From Larus michahellis (Eukaryota > Chordata > Aves > Charadriiformes > Laridae): DNA of 64,000 nt. The position numbers and the translations under genes are program-made. The notes beneath the pieces were generated by a model. It saw nothing but the letters and a program-made list of their open reading frames with translations, had not been told where the DNA came from and searched no databases. Positions 1,863 through 64,000 of this stretch are shown here, one piece after another. Position 1 is the first letter of the stretch. Every line of letters starts with the position of its first letter. The DNA is taken from positions 97,774,200 to 97,838,199 of the forward strand of contig NC_133896.1 of NCBI RefSeq assembly GCF_964199755.1, read 5' to 3'.

Positions 1863-4508
<2,646 letters not shown>

Positions 4509-4714: not shown

Positions 4715-6509
4715 CAAATCAAGCTACGAATGACCCGTGTTTGGTGCCAGATCGGTTCGAAACCTACCTCTTCCCTGACACCCCCCCCCCCCCAGTGGTG
4801 CACATAACCGTAGGTAAATGGCATTGAAAAAAACCCAGAGGTATACACCTTTGAAGAATTACTTCAGGAATACTGCTGTTATTATTATTCTTTATTTTTT
4901 TTTTTTTAGCGGTAATGCAGCAACCTGATTTAATTGAAATCTGTGGTGAATCTAGTAACAGAAAAACCACGCTGGCTGGAGATGATGCCCGTAACCACGC
5001 CGGTAGGCAGATTTCCATATTTCTACGCCAAACCGTGGCACGCGAAACAGAGCAAGGGCTCTTAGGTGTTTTTGCCTCGGCGTCCCACGCAGCTCACCGC
5101 TGCTGGCAGCAGACCTGTCTGCTTGAAATTACCCTCCAGTAGGGTTTTGCTTGAAATTTAGTCTGCTTGAAATTACCCACCCTGACCGGGCACGTGTCCT
5201 CTGGCACAGTACTCCCAGAACAGCCGGCCAGAGGCAGGAGAGAAGGCAGCGGAGAAACCCACCGGCTCGTTTAACAGGACATCTGCAGGCGTGATGATGT
5301 GAACAGAGGTGCTCAGTTCACAAGCTAGTGCCCTAGCCACTAATTAAGTCTCCCTTTTTAATGTGACAGTACCTATACAGGTGACAGGAACAAATTAAAA
5401 ATGACACAGGACCTTCTGAATACATCTTATTTTAGCAAAGGGCTGGATAAACAAGAGCATCCAGTAGACCCACACCTAAAACTTGAAGATCAGAAGTGTG
5501 CATTTCAGTGGAAGGTGGCGGTGGTTTTTCTCCCAGACCAAACTGCAGTCTAGGTTCTCTGTGGGTAGACGGTACGGAGACTGGAAATGGCAGGTTACTG
5601 TGGTCAGAGCTGGTAAAATATCAACATTGAAGCCTGCTTTGTATCTCACCTGAAAGACTCTACGTCCTATTCCATATATTACTGCCAAACATTAGGCGTT
5701 CAGACTAAAATTGCCTATGGCTCACGTCTGTGGCAGCATATGTCTCTTTTCAGTTGTGGGTTATATAGTTCAGATGTTACGGAATGACTACAAAAATAAT
5801 TTAGTCAAAATTACAAACTCTGACAATCATTCCTTTGGAGTGGGAAGGAGGGATCTATGACCATCAACACTGACCTAAGTCCCAAAGAATTGTCAAGAGC
5901 ACAGAGCTGGAAGGAATTACTGACACCAATTGTCTTGTCTAGTCTGATCTTGTCTATCCCAGCATCGTGTGACAGGTCAAACCATCATTCATTTCAGATA
6001 CCTCTTGGAGAAGGGTAGCTGTGAGACCAGCTGGAGATGGAGTTCTGGGAGAGGAGGGAGGGCTCCTTGTGCATTTGGGGCGGTCGGGTCAGGTCCAGTG
6101 TGCCAAAGCCAACTGGGCTTTGAGCTTCATTTCCAAGAAGAGGAACTGAGACCAAATGTTGTCACCATGAAACATGCCAGAAAGGACGGAGTGCATGCAC
6201 CAACCTTTCTGCTTTTTTGTAACATAAAGAGCACACTGACTGCGTCCGAATCTGTGCTTTCTGCTAAGATACAGCCTATGTTCTTTCCCCTTGGAAGGTA
6301 GTTTAGAAACTAGAGTTAGTAGGATAGCCAGTTTTAAAGGCTAAATTACTTGTATAAAATACTAAGAAGCTCTGCATTTTCCTCTATGCAAACTATTCTG
6401 TTTAGGGGGGGAAAAAAAGTGTCTCTTTCCTCAAGAAGGAATTCAAAGCCATAAACATCTAAAGGGCTGGGCATTCTAAGACACACAAACAAAAAAAAAT
6501 TAAAAAATG
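4715..6509. other. Intergenic, between the GTPBP8 promoter and the first CD200R-like leader block
   Basis: No exon or recognisable element seen. It holds a run of 13 C at 4781-4793 and a T-rich tract near 4890-4910. Open frames here are short and not protein-like. Confidence 0.5.
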
Positions 6510-11000: not shown

Positions 11001-11139
11001 ATGATGGGGAGCTCACAGCACGGCGGATGGTGCAAGAAACACACATCGCCCACAAATGCAAGAGCTACTTTGAAAGGCGTCAGGAAGGCCACGTACACCA
11101 TTGTTCTGTTCACCATCACTGCGGTCACAGGAGCTACAG
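11001..11139 (+). CDS. CD200R1: CD200R gene 1 exon 1 (leader, displaced start)
   Basis: An in-frame ATG-ATG at 11001 opens 46 codons, ending in the hydrophobic stretch YTIVLFTITAVTGAT before ACAG|gtactt. Aligned without gaps to the leader at 47,968, the partner of that ATG is TTG at 11070-11072. The extended N-region before the hydrophobic core is therefore about 30 residues with several Lys/Arg, long for a signal peptide. Translation from 11001 or 11004 is the only in-frame ATG option. Confidence 0.6.
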
Positions 11140-14100
11140 GTACTTGTGATGGTACTTTGGTACCAACTCTGTTAAGGGCAGAGGAGGAAAAGGCAATCTA
11201 TCAGAGTGATGTTTACTCCGTTCTTCTCTGAGAACAAAAAAATCTAGAGGAAGGGATCTTTACAAATTGCTGAAGGAAATTTTTTATGCAAACCCGATAA
11301 CCTGCAGATCAAAACTTTTCTAGCTGCAACTAGATCTTTTCAGTTGTCAACCAAGAAGATGTTGAACTTAGGCTTTTCAATGATGTGATGAAAACTGGTA
11401 ATGATTTTCTTGGAGTATGATATTTTTCGTGATAATTAACAGGCTTATTAAAAAAACTGTTTGATGGGAGGTTTTCTGGTCAGTCTGAGTACCCTATCAG
11501 GCTTTACCCTTAGGTATCAATAACTTGTCCTGAAAAATGAAGGATACTGGGATTTTATGACACTACATTCAGATGAAAGTTGTAATAATACTTAATGGGA
11601 AGGTTGTTTCCCCTTTACAAGCTTACTTAAATACTTAGAAAAGCTAATTCCAAAAATGTGGAATCTGAAAATGCAGCTATAACCCTTCTCCTCCCTACAC
11701 TACATTGATTATGCAAAATGTTGTTTGTCTTTCTTGTTTGTTTTTGTTAGGACAGGTGAGGCAGGTCACAAGGCAGTGATCTTGAGTCTGTCAGGAATCT
11801 CTGCATCTAACAGCAAACAGGAATGTGTTTTCTTTCCAGTTAAATGTCGTAATTCTCTACTATATATTCTGTCATCACTATAATCAGGGAAACTGGTTCG
11901 TATAAGCTTTGGAGCAGCAGGGCAGAAATTGCCACCTGCGCTTGACCTGATTAGGAGGGCTGCTTCTATCAAGCACAAAAGTAGGGTGAATGTCTTCAAA
12001 CATTCATTTTTCTGATGTAGTGGGCTGTGATACTGAGGTAAAAGCAACCTGAGAGATCTTCCCAAATAGATGGGCTCTGCAGCTCATTCCAACTCTGCTC
12101 CCTAGTCATGTTCTTAATCCACTGTCCTAGGGAGAGGACCTTACAGAAGGAGGGAGTGAAAACAAGGACAAATGTATGAGAAGGCAACCATGAATTTGGT
12201 GATCTATTCCCACCTAAGAAGAGAGACGCAGCTCAGGCTGGTCCAGACAGGGCCTTACACTAGTGTGTAACAGTGCAGGTATTTCTCTGTGAAGCACAGA
12301 CCAGAACTCCAAGGCTGTGAGTGACTTCCCTGGGATCCTTCTCAAATATCCCTCTCCTTCTTTCTCTCCTTCAGGGCACAAGAGAGTGTCAGTGACAGTA
12401 GGTAACAGCTCTGTGCTCATCTGCTCTCCCAAACCAAATATGACTATGGCAACATGGAAAATAAACCCCAAGGCTGGAGGCCCCTGCAGCCTGGGATACA
12501 GGGCTGACCAGAACAAGACAGACAGAACAAACTGCAGTGAGAGCATCAACTGGAAATTCAGACCAGATCAGGATCCTACCCTTGAGATACAGCAAGTGGG
12601 AAGAGCCCATGAGGGAAGTTACACCTGCAAAGTAGTAGTAGCAGAAGGGAATTTCCACACGTCATACTACCTGACTGTGCTGGGTAAGGGACTCCTTCCT
12701 CATTTTACAGTTCTCCAAAGGACCGTGGCTGGGCCTGGACATACAAAGGGACATGCATGGGGATGCACCAGGGGAAGCGCGCAGTAAGAAGTGGAGGTTT
12801 CTTCCTGGGATAAACTTCATGCATTTCATTGATAGCAGCTCCATGTCTCCCTTCTCCTTATTTCCCAAAACTTCTCTTCCTTGTCCCGCCCCCTTCTCCA
12901 CTGCCTAGTTAGAAATGGCAGGTGTGAAGCAATATCCAATATACCAACAGAGAATTCTGCATATGCATACAGTCATCCTGTGGAATCAATTCTAAATACA
13001 CTAATTTAAGAGAACTAAAGCATGTGAGACTGACACTTCCAAGTGCTGAGATATTGTACCGAACAGGGGATGTTCTTTTCCAGACAGTAAGAATGGACCC
13101 ATTTCCTCTTATGCTGCCATTCAAATACATTTTAAAAAATGTGTACAATGGCTGCTTAGGTCAAAAGTCTAATTCAGTCCTGCATTTGGGATAATTGCCT
13201 ACCGCAATGTCCAGGGAAACCTCCTCCATGGCTGTGGTAAGCCACCTGAATGGGGGAGAGTTGTCCAAAAGGAAAAAAGAGGCACGATCTCTGTCTCTTG
13301 TGACTTGGGCCCATGTCACTGTAACGGGATTGCACCTCCTACCTTATTCTCCTCTTTTCACTCTGTTCATTTTGGGTAGAAAACAAGAACATCCTACCCC
13401 AGCTGCAGCAAACTCACTCCATGTATCTCCTCCTCCTGATGCTTTGCAGTCCCCCCGAGGCTGACCCTCTACTGTGATGATCAAGGGAACCCCGTGTGCA
13501 AGGCAGCGGCAGGGAAACCGGCTGCTCAGATCTCGTGGGTCCTAGAGAACAACTCCACCCCCAAGGAAGAAGGCCATGACGACGGGACAGTGACTGTTCT
13601 CAGCAAGTTCACAGCATACAGCACCAATGGGACAACCTGCATTGTGTCCCACCTGGCTGGGAACTGGAGCAAGTCCATAGCCTGTCATCCCACAAGTAAG
13701 CTTCCCCCTGTGCATTCAGCGTTCAAAACCCTATTTAGCCCTCTGCTCATGGACTAAGACAAACACCAGTGGCACTGGCAGGATTGCAGCAGGAACCATG
13801 CAGCTGAGCTAGTTTCCAGTGAGAAATTTGTCAGGAGGGGGAAAGATAAACAAAAGTGCTGTCAGTCCCCTGTAAAAGTCCTGTAGAGTGCTGTAACTTC
13901 CTCTGTGAAATTCTAGGAAAGGAGAAGTGGTCTTGCCTTCCACCCAATAGAGCTGGATGGAAAGGCAGGATTATTCAGAAGTTTGTGACACACAAAGATG
14001 TCTATGGTATCATCACCTAGATCTACGTATTGTGATCCAGTGGTACCAGTATGTCTTGCTAATTGTTCGGTTATACGTAGGTTGTGACAGGAAGACTGAA

Positions 14101-15531
14101 AGCTACCTAACAGCTCCAAAGCACGGCTGGTAGGTGAAGGCTTTAGGTGGTGAAGTTGAAGACCTTGCTGGGAAATTGTGTGCAACCATGTGTACTTCAC
14201 TGAAGTACTTGGTTGGAAGAGAATCAGAGGTGAAATTTGCTGGGATGCACGCGCAAGGATGCAGCTGGAGCATGGGAACGGGTAGGGAGGAGGATCTAAT
14301 TAGTGCCTGTAGAGCAAAAGACAAGGGTCCTCCATCAAGGGCATGGAGGGACATTGTGTATTGCCAGCTCTGTGCCTGGCGCTGTGCTCCAGCTACCTTA
14401 GGTCATCCTCTGAAGTAGAGCACAAAGAGAGCAGTATCTAGAAGATGCCATCCTGATGGAGGCACAGGGTAAAAAAAAAGTCTGTGAGATGTACCTAAAG
14501 CAGCAACTGTTTCTCTTTAGAGAGTAGTACACGGTTTCTTCACTGTGTCATCAGCCTTGCTAGTCTCCTGAGCCTCCTCTTTCTGCTTGCTGTTCTTCAT
14601 CTCTACACCTTCTGGGATAGCAGGTACGTATGGGACATGATGCACACAAACCCATTTGGCCAGTTCTGGGGAGGTTTAGAAGGGCTTCTGGTACTAACTC
14701 ATGTCATGTGCGGTCACCTCAGTCTGTCAGAAACATGCCAGTTCAGCCCATGTCAATAGAGGTTTGTCCAAGGTCTACATCACCACAGCTGGGGCAGAGG
14801 GGGAGGCAGTCCATACATGAGCACTAGGGACCTTCTCCCTGCTGCCATACCTGTTTCAGAAGCAAAAATACAAAGGGAATGGTCAGGTTTTCCCACCCAA
14901 CTGAGGGATCTGAACAAAGATTGCCAGGCTATGAAGACTAAAGAGGCGGCAAAGTATCGTTCAGAGCTTGGAGACAGAGTTTCAGTCCAGTCTGTCCTGC
15001 TGAAAGGAAGCCAGAGAAGGCAGGGCCAGTGTAGAAATGCAGGCAGTATCGCATGAGAGCAGAACAGGCCTGCTGCTGTAACTGCTCAGGAGTTCTGGCA
15101 GCAGTCTGGCAGCTTGGCCGCATACTCTATCTGAGCTAGTGGGTCTGTCACAAGGTGCAGTTGCTGCCCAGAAGCACAGTACAAACACGGCAGGGGCAGA
15201 ACTAGTTACTGTGCTCCAGTCACTTCAGCTCCACGCTTTGCCAGGGCTCTTGGCACCTCTCCATTTGGTGCTGGCTGGAGCATGGCCAGTCATGCTCATG
15301 TGACAGTACAGATGTAAAGCCTTATGTTCTTTTGTTCCTCTATCAAATGAAGGGAGGAGTCCTGTTCTTACATTCCTAGAGCCCAAAACCACATTCCCAA
15401 AACAGCCTCGTCCTCACACTTACAGTATTGGTGTCTTGTTTCCTAGGACAATGAGAAAACAGTACAAGCCAAGGCCTCTTCCATCTGCAGAGCTGTCTGG
15501 GCCTCGTTCAAACTCAGCACCTGAGCAGTGA
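11001..15531 (+). CDS. CD200R1: CD200 receptor gene 1 (CD200R1-like), five coding exons
   Basis: Exons: leader 11001-11139, IgV 12375-12683, IgC 13450-13695, TM 14521-14623 and tail 15447-15531. They total 882 bases, or 293 aa, with GT-AG sites and consistent phases. CD200R is a myeloid/lymphoid surface receptor that binds CD200 through its IgV domain and dampens activation. IgV (48-149) has the LIC...YTC cysteine pair, the family's extra cysteines (GGPCS, RTNCS) and several N-glycosylation sequons. IgC (151-231) has LYC, a second Cys, ISW and TTCIVS. The TM (about 237-260) lacks a central charged residue. The tail (RTMRKQYKPRP...) has one Tyr but no NPxY or ITIM in frame; see the finding on the alternative frame. 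The start is uncertain because the ancestral ATG position reads TTG. Human CD200R1 is the closest named family member; exact orthology to 1 versus 1L is not resolved. Confidence 0.8.
12375..12683 (+). CDS. CD200R1: CD200R gene 1 exon 2 (IgV domain)
   Basis: Acceptor ccttcag|GGC, donor CTGG|gtaagg. It encodes an IgV fold: GNSSVLIC, ATWKI, the extra Cys in GGPCSLGY and GSYTCKVVV. Sequons are NSS, NMT, NKT and NCS. It differs from its copy at 61,368 by a single base (Lys versus Glu after the YTC cysteine). Confidence 0.92.
13450..13695 (+). CDS. CD200R1: CD200R gene 1 exon 3 (IgC-like domain)
   Basis: Acceptor ttgcag|TCC, donor CACAA|gtaagc. It encodes PPRLTLYCDDQGNPVCKA, AQISWVLEN and NGTTCIVSHLAGNWS. 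Sequons are NST, NGT and NWS. It is base-identical to the second copy. Confidence 0.92.
14521..14623 (+). CDS. CD200R1: CD200R gene 1 exon 4 (transmembrane)
   Basis: Acceptor tctctttag|AGAG, donor AGCAG|gtacgt, with phases matching the flanking exons. It encodes a Leu/Val-rich span (RFLHCVISLASLLSLLFLL, then AVLHLY). There is no Lys or Glu in the span, so pairing with an acidic adaptor is not predicted. It aligns only loosely with the TM exon at 63,472. Confidence 0.85.
15447..15531 (+). CDS. CD200R1: CD200R gene 1 exon 5 (cytoplasmic tail, stop)
   Basis: Acceptor gtttcctag|GACA. The spliced frame gives a 27-residue basic/proline-rich tail beginning TMRKQYKPRPLP and ending at TGA 15529-15531. 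RKQYK resembles the RKYK of the mammalian CD200R1 tail, supporting this acceptor. A different frame (codons from 15524) continues to TGA 15593 and contains SQYASV. Confidence 0.7.
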
Positions 15532-18719: not shown

Positions 18720-19451
18720 TGGTCAAAAAACTAAGGGAATGATATCTGTGTGTATATATCAAAGGATGGGAAGAGGTGTGGTGATTAATGAGGATTTATT
18801 GGGCAGTGTGTGGCCTGAGCATGATGTAAATGGTAGGGAATAAGGGGTGAAGAATTATGCTGCTTTGGGCTGGGATAGAGTAAATTTTCTTCATAGGAGC
18901 TGGTATGGGGCTATGTTTTGGATCTGTGCTGAAAACAATGTTGATAACACAAGGATGTTTTAGTTACCGCTGAGCAGTGTTTACACAGAGTCAAGGCCTT
19001 TTCTGCTCCTCACACCACCCCAGCAGCGAGTAGGCTGGGGGTGCACAGGAGGTGAGAGGGGACACAGCCAGGACAGCTGGCCAAAACTGATGAGAGGGAT
19101 ATCCCATACCATATGATGTCATGCTCAGCAATAAAAGCTGGGGAAGAAGGAGGAAGGGGGGACGTTTGGAGTTATGGTGTTTGTATTCCTAAGTAATCAT
19201 TACACATGATGGAGCCCTGCTTTCCTGGAGATGGCTGAATACCTGCCTGGTGATGGGACGTAGTGAATTAATTCCTTATTTTGCTTTTATTACGCATGCA
19301 GCTTTTGCTTTACTTATTAAACTGCCATTGTCTCAGCCCATAAGTTTTCTTACTTTTGCCCTTCTGATTCTCTCCCCCATCCCACCACGGAGTGGGAAGC
19401 ACATGAGCAGCTGCAGGGGGGTTTAGTTGATGGATGCCTTAAACCAAGACA
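18720..19451 (+). mobile_element. Avian ERV LTR, plus orientation
   Basis: About 730 bases from TGGTCAAAAAACTAAG to ACCAAGACA (TG...CA). It carries the widespread bird LTR text GGGCTGGGATAGAG and TTTTCTTCATAGGAGCTGGT. An AATAAA lies in CAGCAATAAAAGCTGGGG near 19130, and the end has TATTAAACTGCC and the TCTCTCCCCCATCCCACCAC block. The exact left edge is inferred from the purine tract; no matching target duplication was found, as expected if the 5' LTR is lost. Confidence 0.8.
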
Positions 19452-24006: not shown

Positions 24007-24338
24007 GTGGTTTTAACGTCCTATACATCGGACATGATGTAATCCAGCCTTAATTTCACTTCCTTGCCAAATTGTCAGACAAAACCATTGTATTTCATTG
24101 CTGGGGTGAGCATTTACTCAGTGAGTAAAACAGATCTGTCAGTACACAGAGAATCATGATGCTTTTCCAGAACCATTCCCAGCTTCAGAGATAATTGGAT
24201 TTCCTCATTTATGTGCAGCCTGTTGAGCCATGTGTACAGTCAGAAGATTTAGTATCCTCAGCTGTCATACAAAGAGAGAGCAGGGAGAATTCTCCCATGG
24301 AGAAAGTCATGGTAGCTCATGGTAGAAGTCAAGAGAAA
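24007..24338 (+). repeat. Segment E, copy 1 (about 330 bp)
   Basis: Matches 43646-43982 in the same orientation at roughly 96-97% by eye; the second copy has a 7-base duplication (ACATCGG). No terminal inverted repeats, CR1 tail or LTR signature is visible, so its class is unknown. Confidence 0.9.
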
Positions 24339-36340: not shown

Positions 36341-37905
36341 AATCACACAGAATCACAGAATGGTAGGGGTTGGAAGGGACCTTCAGAGATCATCTAGTCC
36401 AACTCCCCTGCCAAAGCAGGTTCACCTAGAGCAGGTCGGACAGGAAGGCATCCGGCTGGGTTTTGAATACCTCCAGAGCAGGAGACTCCACAACCTCTCT
36501 GGGCAGCCTGTTGCAATGCTCTGTCACCCTCAAAGTAAAGAAGTTTTTCCTCATGTTCAGCCAGAATATCCTGTGTTCCAGTCTGTGCCCATTGCCCCTT
36601 GTCCTGTCAGTGGGCACCACTGAAAAAAGTCTGGCCCCATCCTCTTGGTACCGTCCCTTTAGATATTTATAAGCATTGATGAGATCCCCTCTCAGCCTTC
36701 TCTTCTCCAGACTAAAGAGACTCAGGTCTCAGTCTTTCCTCATGAGAGAGATGCTCCATTCCCTTGATCATCTTTATAGCCCTCTGCTGGACTCTCTCCA
36801 GTGGTTCCTTGTCTTTCTTGAACTGGGGAGCCCACAACTGGACACAGTACTCCAGATGTGGCCTCACCAGGACAGAGTAGAGGGGGAGGATGACCTCCCT
36901 CGACCTGCTGGCCACGCAATTTTTAATGCACCCCAGGAGACCATTGGCCTTCTTGACCTCGAGGGCTCATTGCTGGCTTTTGGTCATCCTGTTGTCCACC
37001 AGGACTCATAGATCCTTCTCTGCAGAGCTGCTTTCCAGCAGGTCAACCCCTAACCTGTACTGGTGCATGGGGTTATTCCTCCCTAGGTGCAGGACACTAC
37101 ACTTACCCTTGTTGAACTTCATTAGGTTCCTCTCTGCCCAACTCTCTAGCCTGTCGAGGTCTCACTGAATGGTAGCACAGCCTTCTAGTGTGTCAGCCAC
37201 TCCTCCCAGTTTTGTTTCATCAGCAAATTCAGACCCACACCCAGGTTATTGATGAATATGTTGAATAAGACTGGACCCAGTACTGACCCCTGGGGAACAC
37301 TGCTAGTTACAGGCCTCCAAGTAGACTCTGTGTTGCTGATCACAACCCTCTGGAGTTTTAAATCCACCTCAACCCATGCTTCCTAAGCTTACCTATGAGC
37401 ATGTTATGGGAGACAGTGTCAAAAGCCTTGCTGAAGTCGAGGTAGACAACGTCCACTGCTCTCCCTCATCTACCCAGCCAGTCATGCCACCATCGAAGGC
37501 TATCAGATTGGTCAAGCATGATTTCCCCTTGGTGAATCCATGTTGACCACTCACAATAATCTTCTTGTCCTCTACATGCTTAGAGATGACATCCATAATG
37601 AGCCGTTCCACCACCTTTCCAGGGATGGAGGTGAGGCTGACTGGCCTGTTGTTTCCCGGGTCCTCCTTCTTGCCCTTTTTGAAGACTGGAATGACATCGG
37701 CTTTCCTCCAGTCCTCAGACACCTCTCCTCTTTCCCATGACCCTTCAAAGATGATGGAGAGTGGCTTCACAATAACATCTGCCACCTCTCTCAGCACTTC
37801 TGGATGCATCCCATCAGGGCCCATGGATTCGTGGGTGTCAAGTTTGCCTAAATGATCTTTAACCCAATCATCCTCGACCAAGGAAAAGTCTTCCTTTCTG
37901 ACCTG
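36341..37905 (-). mobile_element. CR1 LINE, 5'-truncated, minus strand, reverse transcriptase remnants
   Basis: The 3' end is marked by the typical CR1 tail (plus strand: AATCACAGAATGGTAGGGGT). Minus-strand frames cover RT text in order: MGPDGMHPEVLREVADVIVK, VIPVFKKGKKEDPGNNRPVS and VSGQHGFTKGKSCLTNLIAF at 37.4-37.9 kb, then SVPQGSVLGPVLFNIFIN, with [15 protein letters not shown] near the 3' end. Frameshifts and stops break it. The catalytic FADD position reads FADE in a shifted frame, so the element is dead. Confidence 0.95.
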
Positions 37906-38919
37906 ATTAAAACAGAAAAAGCCAAATTGATTATAACTACCAGAATTTTACCATCACGTTCTTTTCTTCGCCTGAAGTGTTCTTAGTATTGCAAAATTCC
38001 CAAACTAAGTGATATTTAGAGTTCTTCTGACCCAGCTGGAGTCATATAGTTCTGAGACCTCATATTTTAGCCATTGGTGTTACAGAACAAAACCACCCAA
38101 GCAAATGCGTTTCTTTTGCAGTCATATGATTTGTGTCCAGCAAGCTGAGAAATTATTTTCAATCTTCAGGGCTGGCAAGGCCCTGTTTTCCACATCATAT
38201 AGATGACGTACCCACCCTGTGCTGCTTTTAGTCATACATCACTAACAACCGTAGGCTGGTATTTCCTTGTGCAAGACAGGCCTTGTTTGTTCTGGTGTAG
38301 CAAGCAGGGCTGATTCCTAGTCATATATTAGTATCAGAAACAATGAACTGTTTAGGTCATCAAGTCTGCTTAGATGGGAGAAGCCCATTTGTTCTCAGTT
38401 TCCAATACATGCATCCCAATCATTACATAAGCATTGTATGCGTATCATATATGTAGCTGTGGGAGTTGAGCTTCTATGTGGCAGAAGCAGTTTTTACAAA
38501 TCACTTATAAAAAGTGAAAGTGACAGAATGAGCCAGTAGCAAAACTGGAAGAGAGATTTTTATCTTTGGCCTGTCCTGAACCCCCCGGATCAAGTCTCCT
38601 GCCTTCCTCAGAAAGTGGCAGAAATGAGATAAGCCAGAGCATGGTACAAGATCCAGAGATTCAGACTTTTTGTGGCCTTCAGAAAATTTTGAGTTCCATA
38701 TTATTTTTCAATTTAGTCTTCTTTCACCTTTCAGTATAGCTATCTTTCTTTCACTGGAAAAATCAACGGTAGTGCAGGCTAAAAGCCTAAAGCTGTCAAC
38801 GCATAACTTCCCTTCATCACCTACAGTTCATCACTGCTATGCAATTCACAAAGGTGTTTAAGATTAATTCTGGGAGACGTGAATAGGTATGAACAAAGGG
38901 TGTTTCAAATTTTGTGTGT
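37906..38919. other. Intergenic, nothing assigned
   Basis: No recognisable exon or element. Confidence 0.4.
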
Positions 38920-43645: not shown

Positions 43646-43982
43646 GTGGTCTTAATGTCCTATACATCGGACATCGGACGTGATGTAATCCAGCCTTAAT
43701 TTCACTTCCTTGCCAAATTGTCAGACAAAACCATTGTATTTCATTGCTGGGGTGAGCATTTACTCAGTGAGTAAAACAGATCTGTCAGTACACAGAGAAT
43801 CATGATGCTTTTCCAGAACCATTCCCAGCTTCAGAGACAATTGGATTTCCTCATTTATGTGCAGCCTGTTGAGCTATCTGTACAGTCAGAAGATTTAGGA
43901 TCCTCCGCTGTCATACAAAGAGAGAGCAGGGAGAATTCTCCCATGGAAAAAGTCATGGTAGGTCCATAAGAAGTCAAGAGAA
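43646..43982 (+). repeat. Segment E, copy 2
   Basis: Same-orientation copy of 24007-24338, 19.6 kb away. It lacks the flanking X repeats and has a 7-base ACATCGG duplication near its left end. Confidence 0.9.
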
Positions 43983-44989: not shown

Positions 44990-46068
44990 AACCCGAAAGA
45001 AGAACTGTTTTGAGTGGGGTCTTGAGCAACAGCAAGCCTTTGAGCAGATCAAAGGGAGAGAGCTCGTGTGGTAGCTCTTGGGCCTGTCTGTATAGCACCA
45101 GCTGTGCAAAATGTACTCTACACTGCAGCCAGCAAGCATGGTATCACCTGGAGCCTCTGTCAGAAAACATCAGGATAAACCCAAGGTTGACCACTAGTGT
45201 TTTGGAGCCAGGGGTATCGAGAATCGGAAGCCCACAGCACCTCAACTGAAAAAGAGATACCAGCAGCGTATGAGGGGGTTCAAGCTGCTTCAGAAATTGT
45301 TGGTAGAGAAGCAAATCTCCTCTTAGCACTGCGATTGTCCATGTTACACTGGATGTTCAAAGGAAACATCTCCTCTACACACCACACAAACAGCGCTACA
45401 TGGCGTAAGTGGGTAGTGTTGATCGTGTAACAGGCTCGATGGGGGAAACCCAGACATTCAGAAACCCCTGAAGAGATCATGGTCTGGCCAGAAGGCATAG
45501 ATTTTGGAGCATTGCAGGAGGAGGTGGCTGGTGCCGCAGAAGCACAACCATCTAATGAGTTGTCAGAAGATGAAGGGCGTTATGCTCTGTTTACTGATGG
45601 ATCCTATCATGTGGTAGGAAACCATTGGAAGTGGAAAGCTGTGGAGTCACACATGGCAAGTCATTGAAGCCACTGAAGGAGAAGGTGAGTCAAGTCAGTT
45701 TGCAGAAGTGAAAGTCATCCAGCTATCCCTAGACATTGCTCCCTGGAATAAAGAGCGGTGGCTGGGTTTTCAATATGGCGAGGCCTGGCAAGTGGACTGT
45801 ATTGGACTACTGCCACGGACATGCCAAGGAAAGCTCACTGTGGTGGAAGCAACTACCAGTTGGATGGAAACATACCCTATAAACCATGCCACTGCCCTAA
45901 AGACTGTCTTGTTTTGCCCGTGACGGTAATTGATGAGTGATCTCCCTGTCCTTATCTTGACCCATAAGCCTTTTGTCGTATTTTTCTCCCCTTGTCCAGC
46001 TGAGGAGGGGGAGTGATAGAGCGGCTTGGTGAGCACCTGGCAACCAGCCAAAATCAACCCACCACACC
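44990..46068 (+). mobile_element. Degenerate ERVL-type pol remnant with 3' end
   Basis: In shifting frames there is an RT-connection-like EWGLEQQQAFEQIKG near 45015, an RNase H-like YALFTDGSY near 45580 and an integrase-like WQVDCIGLLPRTCQG with WMETYPINHATA at 45.79-45.9 kb. A purine tract GAGGAGGGGGAG at about 46002 is followed by a short terminal piece (AGCACCTGGCAACCAGCC, then CAACCCACCACA). Large internal deletions and stops make it non-functional. Confidence 0.75.
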
Positions 46069-47394: not shown

Positions 47395-47967
47395 AATGTC
47401 ACTTATAGGGAAGAGACTGCTAATTTTTTTGAGGGAGACATAAGGAGGAATGTTCTTGGAGGCAGTGTCAAAGAAGTGACAGAGAAGTAGCAGTAGTAGC
47501 AGCAGCAGTAGTAGTAGTGACAAATATGAAGAATAAGTTTCTCTGTAGCTTCCCAAGACTGTTTTCCGTTTTGATATTAAACTCAGCCTTGAATAATCTC
47601 CTCTGCTTTTACCCCCTCTGAGGTCTGCTGCAGGGTTTATCTCCACGCATCAGCCTCTTGAGGAGAGCCAATGAACGGAAGGCAGAGTTGTTCAGTCTGT
47701 TTCCTCAGCATTTGCCTAGGCTCGGCACAGGAAGCCTAGTGCTCTGAAAAGTCAGAAGGAGGAACCTCTCCAGCTTTGAGGAGCCACTCGATCGGGAGCA
47801 CGCACAGTTAGAGGAGAGCAGTGGGAAAGGGGGAGAGAAAACACTGGTTGATATTGGCTGTTGAGGACGCACTGGCGAGCAAGAAATACTCCCCATGACC
47901 ACAGCTAGGTTGGCGGCGGGATGGATGGAGTGACGGAGCTGCCTGAGCTGTGAAAGCAGGAGCCGAC
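47395..47967 (+). promoter_or_regulatory. Promoter/5' UTR block D of CD200R gene 2
   Basis: The most complete of four related blocks. It contains a CAG/TAG-type short repeat (47487-47520), the shared GAGGTCTGCTGCAGGG patch, CCAAT in GAGAGCCAATGAACGGAAGG with GGAA (ETS-like) cores, and CTCGGCACAGGAAGCC, ending at the leader ATG. Shared sequence among duplicates marks it as the regulatory/5' UTR module; factor binding is inferred. Confidence 0.45.
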
Positions 47968-48037
47968 ATGAAGACTGCTGGAAAGACTGTGTGTGTTTTT
48001 GTGCTGCTCACCATCACCAAGGTCACGAGAACAGTAG
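47968..48037 (+). CDS. CD200R gene 2 exon 1 (signal peptide)
   Basis: ATG with G at -3 opens 23 codons (basic start, then the hydrophobic core VCVFVLLTI), ending GTAG|gtgagt, a strong donor. It is phase 1, matching the IgV acceptor phase. Confidence 0.75.
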
Positions 48038-54000: not shown

Positions 54001-57000
54001 AATAAGTGACACTGCAAAGGAACAGGTGCAACTAGTTATCCACAAGAAATGTCAAAGACACTACATAAACCATGTTGAAAAAAACAGAGCAAAATCTTTC
54101 CCCCAATCTTTTTCAATTAAAGTAATGACAAAAGTATCCTGCACATTTATGAAACACAAATGCGAACTCCTCAACTGAGTTTGTTTTTTCCTGAGAAAGG
54201 ATATGTCCATTTCCAAACATAAAAGTGGAATCTGTCAGTGCATTGGAATGTGCACTCAATGTGCTGGAATAGAGTTTGAGAACCTCCTCAGACATGGCTT
54301 GAAATCTTCTTCAACAGTCAAGGAGAGACAATGAGGACAAGGAGAGGGCATAATATTATTGGTGTCATAATTAGATGAACTTCAGAGGCTGGAGTCAAAT
54401 TGGAGGACCTCAGTCTAAAAGCCTGCTACCCACCCCAGCTGTCAGATGAGTCTCTGAGGTGAAACCTGCTCATGATGGATTTGCATCCACAACCAAAAAA
54501 GGCTGGTTCAGCCTGGAGCTGTACAGGACTCCCGGAACCTGACTTGCCTATTTTCTACATCAGTGTGACAGACAGCACGTATGCCTGGGCTCCTGAACTC
54601 TGCTCCTTCTGGCTAACAGAAAAAATGATTGCCATTTTCCAGAGTCCACTCATTTGTGAAGAATAAGACTGAAAATGAGAAGTTCTTTACAATAAATGTG
54701 TAGGTATACTATCCTTCATTTCATCTCTCGAGTGCAATGAAATAGTTAACAGGACTGACATTTAATTATCGTCCTTTGGTTATCACTGCACTGAGATGAG
54801 CTTGATAGCTCACACCACATTTCTTGTTCTCTGCAAACTTGTGGCGAGGCCTTTGCTGCACTGATTATCCCCTCTTCAGGTGCAGCAAGCAGTCAGTTCA
54901 TCTCAGCTATAACATGGGATTTCACCTTGAGAGAAGTAGCAGTGCAACACACTAGCTTGTTTCCGAGCCTTCATTTGAATAGATAAATGCTGACGTGTAT
55001 GACATATATGCCCCAAGGCACTGGTCATAAACCAACCAGCTATCGCAGAGGAAACTTTACCAACTGACTTTTAGCCATTTTACAGTATGAAAGCACAATT
55101 CCAGAAAACTGTGGTGCAATGACAGGTCTGAATTAAAACACTTGCAGCACTGAAACTTTCCTCCTTAACAGACTGGAATACTTTTGTTTGTTTAGTTCTC
55201 CTGCAGAGCAGACACATGCCCTTTAGGTTTAGAGAAATTCCCAGAGAGAAGGGGAGGTTGTGTCCTCCCTCAGAGCTGCTGAGTACATACCCAAGAGTGC
55301 AGGCTGGGGCGGGCAGCATAAGGAGGGCAGAGAAAGCAGATGGGGAGACCCTGGCAAAGGGTTTGATTGGAGCAGATCCACAAGTAGCAACAAAAAAAGG
55401 AGCTCAGAAGAGATCATGCGGAATCTGTGCAGACTGACAAGTCAACAGAAGCTAGTGGAGCAGAAGAGACGACTGGGGGAAAGACCCCGTTGTGTAGCGG
55501 CAGAGAGCAGGGGAGATTTATTTTCAGGCAGGTTTTTTTTACATTAGTATAGCTAGCAATTATGTGTTCCCTAAAGAGCTATCACTATCTAGCATATCGG
55601 TTTCTGTTCTAATAAAACATATTTTTAGAGACTAGATGGCTTTTGGTATGCTCACTCGAAAAAGAAAGCAGGGCATGTCCAACTTTAGCCCAAGATGAGG
55701 TCCTATCAACATCTCCAAATTAAAGGAAATGCTATGGCTGACCAGGAGGCACAGGACAGGGATGTGCATAATTTCTATTTAAAGAACTGCCTTTGTGCTG
55801 GTGGGTTGCATAGTTCTTTACAGATCAAACCCTGAGAATATACATTTTGGACTGTTTTTAAATAAAGCTAACTCTGTGCTACAAACCAGCAAGTCTTGAC
55901 ATCTCATTAGGCTATATTTTAGCTTGAAATAGACAGAAGGGCGAATCCTTTTTTCATTAGAAACAGTTATCAAAATGGCTGACACTATTCTTTATGGTTT
56001 GGAAGCTTCTTATCGAGTATTACCCAGGCCCAGACCTATTTTTCTTGTGAGTGACAAGATTTTAGCTCACACAGTTCAAAACCTCACATTATCTGAACTT
56101 GGTACTATGCTCTGTGGTAAAACGAAGCAGAGCTCTCTCTTTGCGTATACTTTCTTGGGAGAATAGAAAGCACGCTGGAAGATTTCTGCACCATGTGATA
56201 ATGTGAATGACCATCTATAGAAAAGGAAGCACTATAATCATGCATATGGCTGACAAGCAGGGCTAATGAGCAAATGCCCAGCAGAACTATCAGCCTGGCT
56301 ACGCTGGTTTTGGGACTCAGTCGAGCCGGTATCCAGAGCACTCTGCTATCACAACATGCTTCCACGCCACATTGAACTGGAAGAGGATCAAAATAGGCAC
56401 AGGCTCTGCAGTTATGCCTTGCTCCCTTACCATTTTGTTACTTTCTCTGTCTTCCACACAAAGATAGACAATCAGAGTTTTAGACAGTCTTGGGAGAATA
56501 ACAGGCTAACAGGGTCATAACACAGGATAAAATCTCTTCCTAATAATATATATCTGTTCTACAGAGCTAAAAACATATTCCCTTTTCCACCTTAAGAGGA
56601 GGCATTCAAAGTAATTTCCCAAATACAAATTAACCAAACCTTTCAGGATTTTTGGCACACACATTCTTCTGTAAAAGAAGTTTAAAGATCACGTTTCCAG
56701 CAGCATGCCTGAGAACAGAAGCAAAGCAAGGAAGAAGTACGGAATTCATATTTTCACTGATGCCACTTACCTGTGCTCTAGAGACAATAAAGAGGACAAT
56801 AAAGTGAAAGCAGTTTAACTTTATTATGTTTATAAGGCCTCTTCACAACAGTAGGAAACTGTATGTAAGAGTAGGATAAACGAGAAGATTTTTTACCAAT
56901 TAATCTACTGTTTGGGGAAAAGCTCTTGCCTTGCTAAAAGCCTTCTAAACTCATAACAAGATACTGGGGAATTCATAAATTCACAGAATCACAGAATAGT

Positions 57001-60000
57001 TTGTGTTGGAAGATCATCTAGTTCCAACCCCCGTGCCCCAGGCAGGGACACTTTCCACTAGACCAGGTTGCTCAAAGCCCCATCCAGCCTCGCCTTGAAC
57101 ACTTCCAGGGATGGGGCCTCAGCAACTTCTCTGGGCAACCTGTTCCAGTGTCTCACCACCCTCAGAGTAAAGAATCCCTCTACAAATGTTTTGTAAACCT
57201 AACATTGTACTTAAACATGATTCAGCAGATTTTAATCTGACTGATGTGGCTTATCATTTAAAGTGAATGGTACCCGATTCATTCAGGGGAGAATATGACA
57301 GAAAGGCACAGCAGAAAGCACCACTTTCACTCCCTCTTTGTTCATTATCTTGAAGCACACAAGCTGTTAGGTTGTGGAATGTGTACATTGCAACAGGCTG
57401 CTTAGGAGATGCAGAGTTGAAAGACAAGTAAAATGATACTGCTTTAATATGTAAATTAAAGTGCATGCACTTAAATATGCACAACATTGTCATTCCTGCA
57501 CAATCTTTGCAAGCGTTATCCACAGAAACCCCAGCCCCAACACACAGGCTCTTTGAATGCTTAGGGTTGCTTAGTCATTTTCAGATGAGGTCAGCCATAC
57601 TGATGACATGACTCGGAGCTCTGAGGCTCTTGGCAGTATTAACCTGGGAGAGGAAACACTTTGTTCTCCAATTTTCAGAGATATTCATAGAACTCACATC
57701 CAGAAACGTCATGAGACAAAAGGCTTCTTTCAGTTCCTCTCCTGGTAAAATCATCTGAGCTCAAAACACACACGTCACATTAGCTGGAAATGCCATTAAG
57801 CAGAAAAAACTTGTCATTTAAAAACACTTCCAGTGTAATAATGTATCCCAGAAGACTGTTGACAATTGAAGTAAGGAAACAAGCATTTGAAGAGTTCGTG
57901 GGTAATTTGTGTCTCAGAAAATGCTGTGAATAGATAGCACTTTTCTTCTTCAGCCATGCTTGGAAACATTAATCAATGAATCCTTGCAATACTGAGCAGC
58001 AGGAAGCTAACCATTATTTCCCTTATTTAATAAAAATGGGAAGAGGATGGCTTCAGTGAAATACTATCCTTACCTAATTTTCCTCTTCTACCAGAAAAAA
58101 ACCCCAGACTTCTCAAAATTAGACTCTGACTTCCATGTTAATACAGCTGGAGTAACTAACACATTACAGCACTGTACAGTGTAGACAGTGTGAGGCAATA
58201 TTGCAGCTCCACCTTCTATCAATCTGCAGGAGCTAGGTCTAGGTTTGGAAATGTCTTCACCCAAAGGATAATTAATCCTCAAAACAAAAAGACAAAAACC
58301 TCTAAAGGAATCTTTAAGTGGTGAAAATGCAGGCAACAGTATTCATTTTGTAAGTCAGAAATCATTTCCCAAGAAAACAGTTAAACAGAAGGAAAAGCAG
58401 TTGAGCTGGAATGGTTCATTCACCTAGATTCCAGAAGATAATGAGATTTCAGACAATATTATTAAGGTAAAACTAACTGTAGTTTTCTCAAAGAGAATAA
58501 TAGTAATGATTTGACTAATAATTTGAAGTTGATGCTCATTAAGACCATTTCTCATAGTGTTGTGAATGTTCAGGAACTGGGCTTCATATGGTGCCAGCCA
58601 GCAGAGACAATAGAATTCCAGCTCTGCATAGAGGATAGAGAAAGACAACAAAGTCAGGTCTGGTACCTCAGAGGGAGACTTTGACAGAGGTTTGATTAAT
58701 CACACAAAACTTAGGTCTTTTAATTCTTTGCATATTCCAGCTGAACTTCCAATTGCCTCTTTAGTATATCTGCTTGAAAGGTTTGGGGAGGGGTTTAACA
58801 TTTTTGGAATGATTTGTGAAACATTCATTTGTCAGTACAAATCAGGTTGGTTAACTTTTGTTGTCCTTCCAGATTAATGCATGGTGTGAAAGTAGTGCTC
58901 TGATTTTCTCCTCACACACAGCTCTCAGAGTATGGCTAAAACCATTACTCAGCCCAAGGAAAGAGCAACTTGGGGTTCTACCAGAGACACAGAGCACTCA
59001 AACATCAGTGGTTTACAGTCCCTGGTTTCATAGAATCATAGAAAGGTTAGAGTTGGAAGAGACCTTAAAGATCATCTAGTTCCAGCCCCCCTGCCCCAGG
59101 CAGGGTCACTTTCCACTACACCAGGTTTCCTAAAGCCCCATCCAACCTGGCTTTGAACACCTCCAGGGAAGGGGCAGTTCAATAGTTTACAGTTTAATGG
59201 TCATCTATTAAAAGAGAAAATGACTGAGGTGGTAAATGGAGGCTGGTTTGGACTGCAGCTATGGGTATTATTCCTATTAACTCACTAATTGTTGCACCTA
59301 GGAGATTTGGAAAAAGAAAGGTTATTTATCTGTAACAGGTGGTCATTTATACACATACATGCATTGTGGATTTTTGGGGTTGTTTGCTTTTAATTTCAGC
59401 AGGTCCCAAAGGACACAAAAGTCCCATTCCCTCACCTATACTTCCCACTGGTTTACAACCTGTGCCTCAGACTCTTGTTTTCTCTCAGCCTCAAAAGTGT
59501 CTCACAAAGGAGGGTGGGTTGTGTATGTAAGTGTAAGCAACACTAATGCACATAATAAGCAACTCATCTTGAAGAACAGTAACAGGTAACCTTTGTTGCA
59601 TCTCTGACTGCTTGCCCACATGTGCCTTCACTGCGAACAAAGCCCACCAGAGAATACTTCATTAATGAAAAGGTCCCAATATGACTAGTTGAAACGAAGC
59701 AAAAGAACCAACTGTCCCAAAGGTGGCACCATGTTGAGAGGCTTCAATGGTCAAGGAAATAGTGAAACGAATCTTGGGGTTAGAAACTTCACCCCTTGGA
59801 TGTGTCAGATGAAGAAATGGGCAGATGAGGGGCCCAAATCTGGTCAATACAAAGAGAGGAAGAGTGACTCATGTTCAATACATGCAAAAAAGAATCAGTC
59901 CTGAAAGCTTGTGGAAGAAGAAAGCCTGGGCAAATTAGTTTCTTGGCTAAGGAGAAATTCAGGGGCCCATAAGGAAAAAAAAAATTAAAAAAAATATATT

Positions 60001-63000
60001 AGAGGCAATCCTCAGAGTGTGCCTTGTCTTCACAGAATCACAGAATGGTTTGGGTTGGAAGGGATCTTAAAGATCACCTAGTTCCAAGCCCTCTGCCATG
60101 GGCAGCGACACCTCCCACTAGACCAGGCTGCTTAAAGCCTCATCCAGCCTGGCCTTGAACACCTCCAGGGATGGGGCATTGACAGCTTCCCTTGGCAACC
60201 TGTTCCAGTGCCTCACTACCCTTATAGTGAAGAATGTTTTCCTGATATCGAATCTAAATCTGCCCTCCTTCAGTTTGAGGCCATTACCCCGTGTCCTATC
60301 ACAACACTCCCTAATAAAGAGCCCCTCCCCATCCTTCCTGTAGGCCTCCTTTAGGTACTGGAAGGCCGCTGTAAGGTCTCCTCGGAGCCTTCTCTTCTCC
60401 AGGCTGAACAACCCCAATTCTCTCAGCCTGTCCTCATAGCATAGGTGCTCCAGCCCTCTCATCATCTTCATGGCCCTCCACTGGACCCATTCCAACAGCT
60501 CCGTGTCCTTCTTGTGCTGAGGACTCCAGAGCTAGACACAGTACACCAGGTGGGGTCTCACCAGAGCAGAGTAGAGGGGCAAACCCAGAACACAGAGAAG
60601 CCATAATAGTGGTCTGGCTCTCCACCCTTCACTGGCCAATGTGATAACTTCCGAAAAGGACAAGAGGACTAGGTCCAAGCTTTTCCATACAGACATCTAG
60701 CTTCAAGTACATAGTTCAAGGATCACGAAAAGATAGAAAGGACATATCGTGCCTAACTCCAAGCAAGAGTCATCTCTTAAAACCCAAAAGAAGAGTCAGT
60801 GTCATAGAAAGAAACAGAACATGTTTCCAAGCAAATGCAAAACAGAATCAAGAACAAGACATACTCACTATTAGGGAGTCAACACAGTTGATTCATCAAC
60901 TGAAAAAGGTGTTTCTGCAACCTTAGCCTCACCAGCAAGAGACACAGGGATATGGGCATATTTTACACTTTCATAACTGCATGCCTGGCGCAAAGATAGG
61001 CAGGACCTACATTCATGTACTATTGGTACCTCTTCAGTAAAAAAAGTACAGTCACAGTGTGAATGCATATGTACGCATTGTGTACATTCATAGTGTGAAT
61101 GAATATGTTCACAAATATTCAGGAAATGAAATGACACCCCTGAGGCAAAATCTTTTCCCCCTACACGAAGCTCTGCCGTTGTTACTTATGTTGTGTTTAT
61201 GCCTGAGAGGTATGGACAAGGCCTTTGTCCACAGCGGACCCTAACCCTTACCCTGGCATGCAACAGTGCAGGTATTTCTCTGTGAAGCACAGACCAGAAC
61301 TCCAAGGCTGTGAGTGACTTCCCTGGGATCCTTCTCAAATATCCCTCTCCTTCTTTCTCTCCTTCAGGGCACAAGAGAGTGTCAGTGACAGTAGGTAACA
61401 GCTCTGTGCTCATCTGCTCTCCCAAACCAAATATGACTATGGCAACATGGAAAATAAACCCCAAGGCTGGAGGCCCCTGCAGCCTGGGATACAGGGCTGA
61501 CCAGAACAAGACAGACAGAACAAACTGCAGTGAGAGCATCAACTGGAAATTCAGACCAGATCAGGATCCTACCCTTGAGATACAGCAAGTGGGAAGAGCC
61601 CATGAGGGAAGTTACACCTGCGAAGTAGTAGTAGCAGAAGGGAATTTCCACACGTCATACTACCTGACTGTGCTGGGTAAGGGACTCCTTCCTTATTTTA
61701 CAGTTCTCCAAAGGACCGTGGCTGGGCCTGGACATACAAAGGGACATGCATGGGGATGCACCAGGGGAAGCGCGCAGTAAGAAGTGGAGGTTTCTTCCTG
61801 GGATAAACTTCATGCATTTCATTGATAGCAGCTCCATGTCTCCCTTCTCCTTATTTCCCAAAACTTCTCTTCCTTGTCCCGCCCCCTTCTCCACTGCCTA
61901 GTTAGAAATGGCAGGTGTGAAGCAATATCCAATATACCAACAGAGAATTCTGCATATGCATACAGTCATCCTGTGGAATCAATTCTAAATACACTAATTT
62001 AAGAGAACTAAAGCATGCGAGACTGACATTTCCAAGTGCTGAGATATTGTACTGAACAGGGGATGTTCTTTTCCAGACAGTAAGAATGGACCCATTTCCT
62101 CTTATGCTGCCATTCAAATACATTTTAAAAAATGTGTACAATGGCTGCTTAGGTCAAAAGTCTAATTCAGTCCTGCATTTGGGATAATTGCCTACCGCAA
62201 TGTCCAGGGAAACCTCCTCCATGGCTGTGGTAAGCCACCTGAATGGGGGAGAGTTGTCCAAAAGGAAAAAAGAGGCACGATCTCTGTCTCTTGTGACTTG
62301 GGCCCATGTCACTGTAACGGGATTGCACCTCCTACCTTATTCTCCTCTTTTCACTCTGTTCATTTTGGGTAGAAAACAAGAACATCCTACCCCAGCTGCA
62401 GCAAACTCATTCCATGTATCTCCTCCTCCTGATGCTTTGCAGTCCCCCCGAGGCTGACCCTCTACTGTGATGATCAAGGGAACCCCGTGTGCAAGGCAGC
62501 GGCAGGGAAACCGGCTGCTCAGATCTCGTGGGTCCTAGAGAACAACTCCACCCCCAAGGAAGAAGGCCATGACGACGGGACAGTGACTGTTCTCAGCAAG
62601 TTCACAGCATACAGCACCAATGGGACAACCTGCATTGTGTCCCACCTGGCTGGGAACTGGAGCAAGTCCATAGCCTGTCATCCCACAAGTAAGCTTCCCC
62701 CTGTGCATTCGGCATTCAAAATCCTGTGCACATTCTTGTTCCTTCTAGGAAGGAAAATCTGTAAAAGCTACAGAAATCTTCAGTGAAGTCCCATATAGAC
62801 AGAGTACAATCCCCAACTGCCTTTGCCCATAAACATGACCAGCTTGTTTGTGTTCTAGACACTATTTCCTAATGCTTTCTTTCTTAGGACAGATATACAT
62901 AAGTGCGGTAGTATTGTTTTGGTAATGGAGATGTTGGAACCAGAAACAAAGCACTCATGATCTTAGTGTTAAAATAATCACTTGGAAGCAGAATATCAGC

Positions 63001-64000
63001 AAAATTTTTTTGGATGCAAATGTAAAGTCTCTTGCTCAGATCACAGTAAGAGAGACAAAGAGAACCAACTCTTGCATGGCCAGCAAAAACAAATAAATGA
63101 CTTAATTCTGAGTTGTGAATGTCTGACTGTATGACATTTGGTTTCTCATTTTTGCTTTTTTTCTTGCTTTTGAGAACTACACATAAGTTGCAGTACTGAG
63201 ATATGCTGAGTTCTTGAGAGGATCTCAGGTATGACTTAGTGAAAAAATACCATGAGTGTCCACTGTGGGATTTGTGGGATCTGCTTTTGTCTCTGACGCA
63301 GATTCCATTTGTGTTTCTCAGACAAGTTTCATTACTGACTTTCCCTTCTGCTGAAGTGGATTTTATTTATTTTACAAGCATGAATTAAAATGTGTGTACG
63401 TACTAAAGCAGCTTTAATCTTATACTGAAATAACAAAGAAGACATAACTAAGACTAACTCTTTGTGTTTAGAGTCCACCATCTTTACCCGATACGTCTAC
63501 ATCATTCTTTGCTTCCTGAGCATTATCACCTTCATGGCTGTCTTTTACTACTTTAAGCTCCACCGTGACAGGTACGTATGATAGAGTGTTAAGAAAAGAT
63601 TGTCTGCTACTGGAAGAAATCTTTAAGTAGCATTTGTGTCTTGAAACCATATGAGTTTGACAGTCTGTGCTGCTATGAATAACTGAATTAACTACATCAA
63701 ATAATTCTATACTGCAGACACTGTGCGTTGCTCACATCTTCACTGAATAATGCACCTGAGTAAAATATAAATGGGCAGAAGCTGGCAGAGGTTCCTCATT
63801 GCATTGCCTGCTATGCTAAAGGGGAGCTCTTCTTTTTAATAGGAAACTGGGAGAGTAAAGCTGTTCTTCAGATCGGGTGACAGTTTGTCAATGTCTCTCT
63901 TGTTTAGATCGGGGGGTTGGTTCTGCTGCCTAGTAAGTTCCATCAAGTGCCAGAGGACTGACCAGTGCTATCCTGCCATATCAACAGAGGGAACAGCAGA
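47968..64000 (+). CDS. CD200 receptor gene 2 (CD200R1-like), 3' end beyond window
   Basis: Inferred exons: leader 47968-48037, IgV 61368-61676, IgC 62443-62688, TM 63472-63571 and tail exon from 63908 to the window end. Phases agree throughout. The leader MKTAGKTVCVFVLLTITKV joins in frame to HKRVSVTV of the IgV domain, across a 13.3-kb intron. The ectodomain is nearly identical to gene 1, with Glu instead of Lys after the YTC cysteine. The TM (YVYIILCFLSIITFMAVFYYF, then KLHRDR) is unlike gene 1's and has no mid-membrane charge. The tail begins RSGGWFCCL and, if read through, includes YPAI, an endocytic-type YxxI rather than a classic ITIM. Linking this leader to these Ig exons is inference; the leader might belong to another transcript. 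Confidence 0.7.
48038..51990 (+). other. First part of the large intron 1 of CD200R gene 2
   Basis: No exon recognised. Frames are short and lack domains. Confidence 0.4.
51991..52520 (-). mobile_element. Possible ancient CR1/L3 LINE relic
   Basis: Plus-strand text around 52320-52430 (CATCTGCTGAGAAACACTAT, ending with an AATCCAGTTTTTTGTCCATC patch) resembles the antisense of the CR1 RT region just upstream of the FADD motif. Strongly diverged. Confidence 0.35.
52521..56979 (+). other. Middle of intron 1 of CD200R gene 2
   Basis: Nothing recognised apart from low-complexity A/T tracts. Confidence 0.4.
56980..57181 (-). mobile_element. CR1 3' end fragment, minus strand
   Basis: Starts with the antisense CR1 tail (TTCACAGAATCACAGAATAG) and continues with CATCCAGCCTCGCCTTGAAC and related text. 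Truncated after about 200 bases. Confidence 0.9.
59028..59178 (-). mobile_element. CR1 3' end fragment, minus strand
   Basis: Antisense CR1 tail (CATAGAATCATAGAAAGGTT) followed by the CCCCTGCCCCAGGCAGGGTC and CATCCAACCTGGCTTTGAAC text. About 150 bases. Confidence 0.9.
60031..60582 (-). mobile_element. CR1 3' fragment with RT C-terminus, minus strand
   Basis: Antisense CR1 tail (TCACAGAATCACAGAATGGT) and a minus-strand frame at 60118-60495 encoding CR1 ORF2 C-terminal text ([30 protein letters not shown]). It is the best preserved CR1 frame here. Confidence 0.93.
61239..61253 (+). repeat. Short telomere-like run beside the converted tract
   Basis: CCCTAACCCTTACCC lies 9 bases left of the point where the IgV-IgC cassette becomes near-identical to gene 1. 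Only two to three units, so it may be chance. Confidence 0.5.
61368..61676 (+). CDS. CD200R gene 2 exon 2 (IgV domain)
   Basis: Same splice sites and phase as gene 1's IgV exon. The sole coding difference is GAA (Glu) for AAA (Lys) in YTC(E/K)VVV, on the strand after the conserved cysteine. Confidence 0.92.
62443..62688 (+). CDS. CD200R gene 2 exon 3 (IgC-like domain)
   Basis: Identical in sequence to 13450-13695, with the same acceptor and donor. It carries three N-glycosylation sequons and the IgC cysteines. Confidence 0.92.
63472..63571 (+). CDS. CD200R gene 2 exon 4 (transmembrane)
   Basis: Acceptor gtgtttag|AGTC, donor GACAG|gtacgt. It encodes STIFTR, then a 21-residue hydrophobic aromatic-rich span and the stop-transfer KLHRDR. 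It shares exon length class, phase and the GTACGTATG donor context with gene 1, but little residue identity. Confidence 0.85.
63908..64000 (+). CDS. CD200R gene 2 exon 5 (cytoplasmic tail, cut by window end)
   Basis: Acceptor cttgtttag|ATCG. The frame gives RSGGWFCCL and is open to the window edge. A strong donor (CTA|gtaagt at 63933) could end the exon after 25 bases; otherwise it reads on through CQRTDQCYPAIST. The CC pair just inside the membrane is a possible palmitoylation site. Confidence 0.6.

Follow-up and report, generated by a model that had tools for sequence, protein, structure and literature searches.

The locus examined here raises the question of how two receptor genes with clearly different leaders, membrane segments and tails come to carry almost the same ligand-binding head. 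The stretch of DNA that was analysed, referred to as the window, comprises 64,000 nucleotides of Larus michahellis (contig NC_133896.1, positions 97,774,200 to 97,838,199); it contains no N and lies within a 224-Mb contig. An earlier note, made from the letters of this stretch, had pointed to two CD200 receptor (CD200R) genes sharing a nearly identical ectodomain cassette. Same-head, different-tail receptor pairs are thought to be pathogen-driven.

Two CD200R Genes with Different Membrane and Tail Parts

Both genes belong to the CD200 receptor family, as each has a head of one IgV and one IgC2 domain, and both exons find their best PDB matches in CD200R1 and CD200R4. Their features are collected in Table 1. 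The gene at about 12 kb (gene 1) is of the avian CD200R1-B-like type, with an uncharged transmembrane (TM) segment and a short tail; in its model the splice sites are GT/AG and the frame is open over 293 aa, and inspection of the translated exons found neither an ITIM nor an ITAM in the tail and no charged residue in the TM core. Among the best 120 of 324 protein matches, the nearest to gene 1 is a CD200R1-B-like protein of Chroicocephalus ridibundus (99% identity at 84% query coverage). The neighbour of gene 1 on the minus strand is presumably GTPBP8, which we take to be the usual neighbour of CD200R1.

Table 1. Features of the two CD200R genes, their shared cassette and the neighbouring gene (window positions unless stated otherwise).
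Feature	Position	Strand	Evidence or remark
GTPBP8-like neighbour, two exons	3302..4165	-	Pfam MMR_HSR1 above cut-off; NCBIfam YihA/YsxC below its cut-off
Gene 1, possible alternative first exon	4915..5004	+	97% identity, 30 aa, to start of Chroicocephalus ridibundus model P0001; followed by GT donor
Gene 1, leader exon	11001..11139	+	Splice sites, frame; 85% identity to Gavia stellata B leader, 46 aa
5' shoulder of tract	12253..12268	+	Older, partly matching sequence; pairs with 61246-61261; 5 mismatches in 16 bp
Homogenised cassette, gene 1 copy (core tract)	12269..13717	+	6 of 1,449 bp differ from 61262-62710, no indel
Gene 1, IgV exon	12375..12683	+	Pfam V-set; CD200R gives best PDB matches
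Only coding difference between the heads	12629..12629	+	AAA (K) in gene 1, GAA (E) at 61622 in gene 2; mouse CD200R E106 position
Gene 1, IgC exon	13450..13695	+	Pfam C2-set_2; CD200R gives best PDB matches
3' shoulder of tract	13718..13732	+	Pairs with 62711-62725; 3 mismatches in 15 bp
Gene 1, TM exon, hydrophobic core uncharged	14521..14623	+	86% identity to Gavia B, 28 aa
Gene 1, short cytoplasmic tail exon and stop codon	15447..15531	+	89% identity to Gavia B, 27 aa
Gene 2, leader exon, coding from second family Met	47968..48037	+	Family leader 47950-48037
Homogenised cassette, gene 2 copy (core tract)	61262..62710	+	One of 2 own-genome DNA matches
Gene 2, IgV exon	61368..61676	+	Exon model; one coding difference to gene 1 IgV
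Gene 2, IgC exon	62443..62688	+	Exon model
Gene 2, TM exon	63472..63571	+	82% identity to Alca torda A, 33 aa
Gene 2, tail exons	L003 1196-1249 and 3074-3193, outside window		Tail exon 97.5% identical to Alca torda A, 40 aa

The gene at about 61 kb (gene 2) is CD200R1-A-like, and its NxxY/ITIM-like tail lies beyond the window, in locus L003, where the two tail exons encode LCHKTKPPETAPTHSPQ and DDTMEVEPYTTYVQKENVIYNSVSDLTVGQNLLQGLSPAT. The stretch ENVIYNSV in this tail contains NxxY and fits an ITIM; by its predicted tail, gene 2 (A) is an inhibitory-type receptor. It has been reported that the chicken ITIM reads NVIYNSV (PMC4333742), and it has been speculated, as set out in PMC8007030, that the overlapping bird ITIM is non-functional and that the NxxY context is inhibitory. 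The leader of gene 2 sits 13.3 kb upstream of its IgV exon and agrees with the Alca torda CD200R1-A leader in 27 of 28 residues; at the usual first-Met position (47950) the codon is GTG, and the second Met is the probable start codon, in line with the hoatzin model P0054. Two other candidate exons of gene 2 were ruled out: an open reading frame just upstream of the cassette (61131-61209) as leader, since the conserved A leader was found farther upstream, and 63908-64000, since the family tail is encoded by the L003 exons.

In both genes the reading frame stays open past the IgC donor (13696-13751 in gene 1 and 62689-62785 in gene 2), and the read-through peptides resemble the C-termini of several bird models, among them P0026, P0023 and P0016 (B) and P0074 (A), hinting at a soluble, intron-retained CD200R form. 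Within an intron of gene 1, positions 13910-14020 resemble an extra peptide of the Colius and Aegotheles models (WKGR..K.M.HKD) and could be a cassette exon.

A Nearly Identical Tract with Sharp Ends

When the window was compared with itself by blastn, 12253-13732 and 61246-62725 aligned gap-free over 1,480 bp at 99.05% identity, in the same orientation and about 49 kb apart. The core of this alignment runs from the end of intron 1 through the IgV exon, a 766-bp intron and the IgC exon into the start of the next intron; its six differences (gene 1 positions 12629, 12701, 13025, 13036, 13060 and 13417) are all transitions, five of them in the 766-bp intron and one in the 555 coding bases. The earlier note had counted six substitutions and no indel over about 1.44 kb, which is right for the core, while the exact 1,452 bp it had delimited hold seven, the seventh (13718) belonging to the 3' shoulder. 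Its description of leaders, TM exons, tails and flanks as diverged, with weak homology in the immediate flanks, agrees with our alignments: outside the core only the two partly matching shoulders align, ungapped identity beyond them is at chance level, and similarity is lost within about 16 bp on each side. A plus-strand blastn search of 8000-19000 against 55000-64000 (word size 7) gave no further homology better than E = 1.0. Both a homogenised intron inside the tract and sharp tract ends are present, as tested in the window.

In the bird's own genome (1.4 Gb, 616 contigs), the cassette DNA has exactly two matches and is therefore not a repeat, and about 230 kb of downstream sequence holds no additional cassette. 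A protein search of the genome with the IgV and IgC exons adds one diverged CD200R-like locus (C1:107605523-107607486; L009, L033) and, on C18, a weak match to IgV (E = 0.04); the former comprises both an IgV and an IgC exon, each with 45% identity, and lies 9.8 Mb from the window on its chromosome. Between the two genes lies a pair of direct copies, 24025-24337 and 43671-43982 (314 bp, 96% identical), which has no relation to the cassettes, and two open stretches, 37393-37947 (minus strand) and 45618-45923 (plus strand), which we take to resemble fragments of reverse transcriptase and retroviral integrase.

Heads Cluster by Species and Flanking Exons by Paralogue

The earlier note had proposed that, in related birds, Ig exons should cluster by species and TM exons by orthologue. 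The best 120 of 324 and the best 120 of 335 protein matches, together 156 different bird proteins, were used for this comparison, so that the evidence from other birds consists of gene models at the protein level. At least two records are available for 24 species, of which 17 could be sorted into A and B by leader and/or tail, giving 18 pairs with the window; in this sorting Bubo A was assigned from an A-type read-through peptide and the B records of Excalfactoria and Meleagris by leader alone, the Excalfactoria B model carries an A-like TM, the Anas A model combines a B leader with an A tail, and the B records of the pheasant family are weak. The other seven species (Anser, Ardeotis, Coturnix, Lagopus, Pelecanus, Phaethon and Tympanuchus) did not resolve into a single A and a single B; here too each record is closest to its own species, but these cases were left uncounted, because several may represent the same gene twice.

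Within species, the A and B ectodomains are 85.5-100% identical across the 18 pairs, and in all 18 no other species of the set comes as close in identity, to be read with the 90% clustering of the protein database, which keeps close relatives out of view and tilts nearest neighbours towards the own species. In a maximum-likelihood tree of the 36 ectodomains, 17 of the 18 A/B pairs form exclusive sister groups (16 starred, 1 identical); the sole exception is Acridotheres, whose copies are still mutually closest by identity. In Aptenodytes the A and B ectodomains do not differ at all, so a single cassette could underlie both models. Grouping all A ectodomains into one clade is rejected (p-AU 1.9e-106), a set of identical rows being left free. 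The gene order is B then A, so a B TM in a model implies the B cassette and an A leader implies the A cassette; under this strictest sorting nine pairs are kept (the window, Acridotheres, Colius, Ficedula, Gavia, Opisthocomus, Phalacrocorax, Pithys and Strix), and eight of them are exclusive sisters. When all 158 ectodomains were compared with the first columns trimmed, records of the 18 pairs were still nearest to their own species, with Aptenodytes tied with a congener. Bird CD200R ectodomain trees thus do not reveal orthology. B branches are longer than A branches in 12 of the 17 non-identical pairs of the tree, which is not a significant excess.

The flanking exons follow the paralogue instead. 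Among the matches listed, TM exons are nearest to the same paralogue in 70/70 cases (49 A, 21 B; P0021, P0095, P0155 and P0091 left out) and leaders in 85/85 (49 A, 36 B), counts that are partly circular, as TM and leader types were chosen by motif. The identity between A and B TM segments within a species averages 15% (11 species). A search with the B TM and tail alone returned seven proteins. B-type TMs are present in the B models of duck and goose, which suggests that both genes predate the separation of ducks from the other birds of that kind in the sample. Both Aegotheles models continue into one and the same downstream peptide, so the homogenised stretch may extend further there. If every exclusive pair stands for one or more copying events in its own lineage, the number of such events would be up to 17, or eight under the strictest sorting.

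Probable Recurrent Gene Conversion and Its Alternatives

Non-allelic gene conversion copies introns together with exons and ends where homology ends. The tract spans an intron and its exons and ends with the homology, which fits such conversion, and we infer that this was the DNA event behind it. We are highly confident that the explanation is concerted evolution of avian CD200R by recurrent gene conversion limited to the ligand-binding cassette. Two old paralogous CD200R genes would retain their own leaders, TM segments and tails, and the IgV-intron-IgC cassette would be overwritten repeatedly, one copy from the other, with gene 1 (B) as the short-tailed partner with an uncharged TM and gene 2 (A) as the inhibitory-type receptor. 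Between the two genes, TM and leader exons show weak DNA similarity, with alignment scores about 3 and 5 SD above shuffles, which marks them as old homologues that are now too diverged for conversion; their copying would presumably also wipe out the signalling difference. At a substitution rate of 2e-9 per site per year, 6 differences in 1449 sites would place the last conversion in this bird about 1 million years ago. The sharp-ended tract, with heads by species and TM and leader exons by paralogue, thus upholds the earlier note's preference for conversion limited to the ligand-binding part. Its paired-receptor pattern stands as regards near-identical heads with different membrane and tail parts. 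The common CD200 recognition that it supposed is less secure, the only coding difference falling on a known CD200 contact, and the partner is not a classical activating receptor, given the short tail and uncharged TM core of gene 1 and its lack of an ITAM.

Among the alternatives, the one that survives best, though improbable, is an ancestral gene whose single cassette was combined with alternative leaders and TM exons and was duplicated independently in many lineages. A B leader is joined to an A tail in models P0150 (Anas), P0095 (Lagopus) and P0021 (Tympanuchus), as this history would allow, and these models may reflect splicing from the upstream to the downstream gene or may be chimeric; however, the same fragment would have had to insert many times at one site, whereas overwriting of an existing copy is simpler and accounts for the partly matching shoulders. 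An assembly or polishing artefact, by which a single real cassette was written into both sites, is very unlikely: this bird is represented by one assembly, but the copies differ at six core sites, both lie on one contig in a window free of N, and the pattern recurs in 16 other species whose copies are non-identical across the whole ectodomain. Still less credible is a recent whole-gene duplication with leader, TM and tail swapped or diverged later, which the earlier note had also disfavoured; near-identical Ig exons would be expected from it, yet the flanks do not align at all, and the leaders and TM exons are orthologous to the A and B types of other birds, so both genes are old. That purifying selection alone holds both heads alike, as might be thought of a ligand-binding part, is hardly conceivable, since the 766-bp intron is almost as similar as the exons and since the best other species of the paired set reach only 82-83% ectodomain identity to the window, so that the head varies between species yet matches between paralogues.

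The Lone Coding Difference and CD200 Binding

The only amino-acid difference between the two heads of the window lies directly after the F-strand cysteine and, by alignment to mouse CD200R, corresponds to E106 in the numbering of PMC3664923, where E106 and E115 of the mouse receptor are described as forming salt bridges with K100 of CD200. At this site 147 of the 156 listed bird proteins have E, seven have D, one each has N and T, and none has K; the Chroicocephalus B copy also has E, so the K of gene 1 is probably the derived state. With K in one head and E in the other at a salt-bridge position, common CD200 binding by both is not assured; the K may weaken the binding of gene 1 to CD200, a suggestion as thin as one site in one assembly. 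Over all pairs, A-B differences are commoner in IgV (109 in 102 columns) than in IgC (27 in 82). Their enrichment at mapped contacts is not significant (14/162 against 95/1,674 IgV cells, p = 0.09; p = 0.06 when the window and the first 7 columns are left out).

Under recurrent conversion, it is possible, and we offer this tentatively, that selection holds the B head matched to A and hence to the same ligand or the same pathogen mimic, with B signalling little and serving as a decoy or tuner; in this bird, CD200 binding by B may already be weakened by the first residue to change after the last copying. A rather unlikely variant is that the B head is periodically overwritten from A, tracks the exploiters of A, and later evades host CD200 through contact changes, which would make B a decoy that tracks pathogens and lacks an activating tail. 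The B copy of the window would then be seen shortly after such an overwriting, the one change between the heads being a charge reversal at a CD200 salt-bridge residue.

Comparison with Known Receptor Pairs

The process as such is known from Siglec-11/Siglec-16 and CEACAM1/3; what differs is the CD200R family, the spread over birds and a partner of non-activating type. By title and abstract opening, no description of conversion of avian CD200R heads was found in the literature searched, the 2008 chicken CD200R paper being outside its scope, and part of the finding may already be in print. The chicken CD200R family, as cited from Viertlboeck et al. (2008) in later papers, includes a CD200R-S1 form; it is likewise a bird family, with the same NVIYNSV tail motif as gene 2.

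In the account given in PMC5701461, gene conversion has made the ligand-binding regions of Siglec-11 and Siglec-16 alike again and again, and this holds for all primates examined. As in the birds, an inhibitory receptor and its partner are concerned; the difference is that Siglecs are another family, in primates, with an activating partner, whereas the avian CD200R partner is short-tailed with an uncharged TM. For CEACAM1 and the ITAM-bearing CEACAMs of mammals, PMC2832619 describes conversion or recombination around the ligand-binding exons, often hardly reaching into the flanking introns. This resembles avian CD200R in its limitation to ligand-binding exons, but it concerns mainly the N-domain exon, whereas the avian tract consists of two Ig exons and the intervening intron.

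A well-studied pair for comparison is mouse CD200R and CD200RLa, again an inhibitory receptor and a close relative in the same receptor family. It has been reported that the CD200RLa ectodomain is 86% identical to that of CD200R and hardly binds CD200 (PMC3664923), most of the binding having been lost. In the mouse the ectodomains differ, whereas the bird heads stay nearly identical; birds thus appear to be the opposite of the mouse, with heads repeatedly kept alike by copying. Two heads that are one residue apart at a mapped contact offer a natural experiment on whether a partner must share the ligand.
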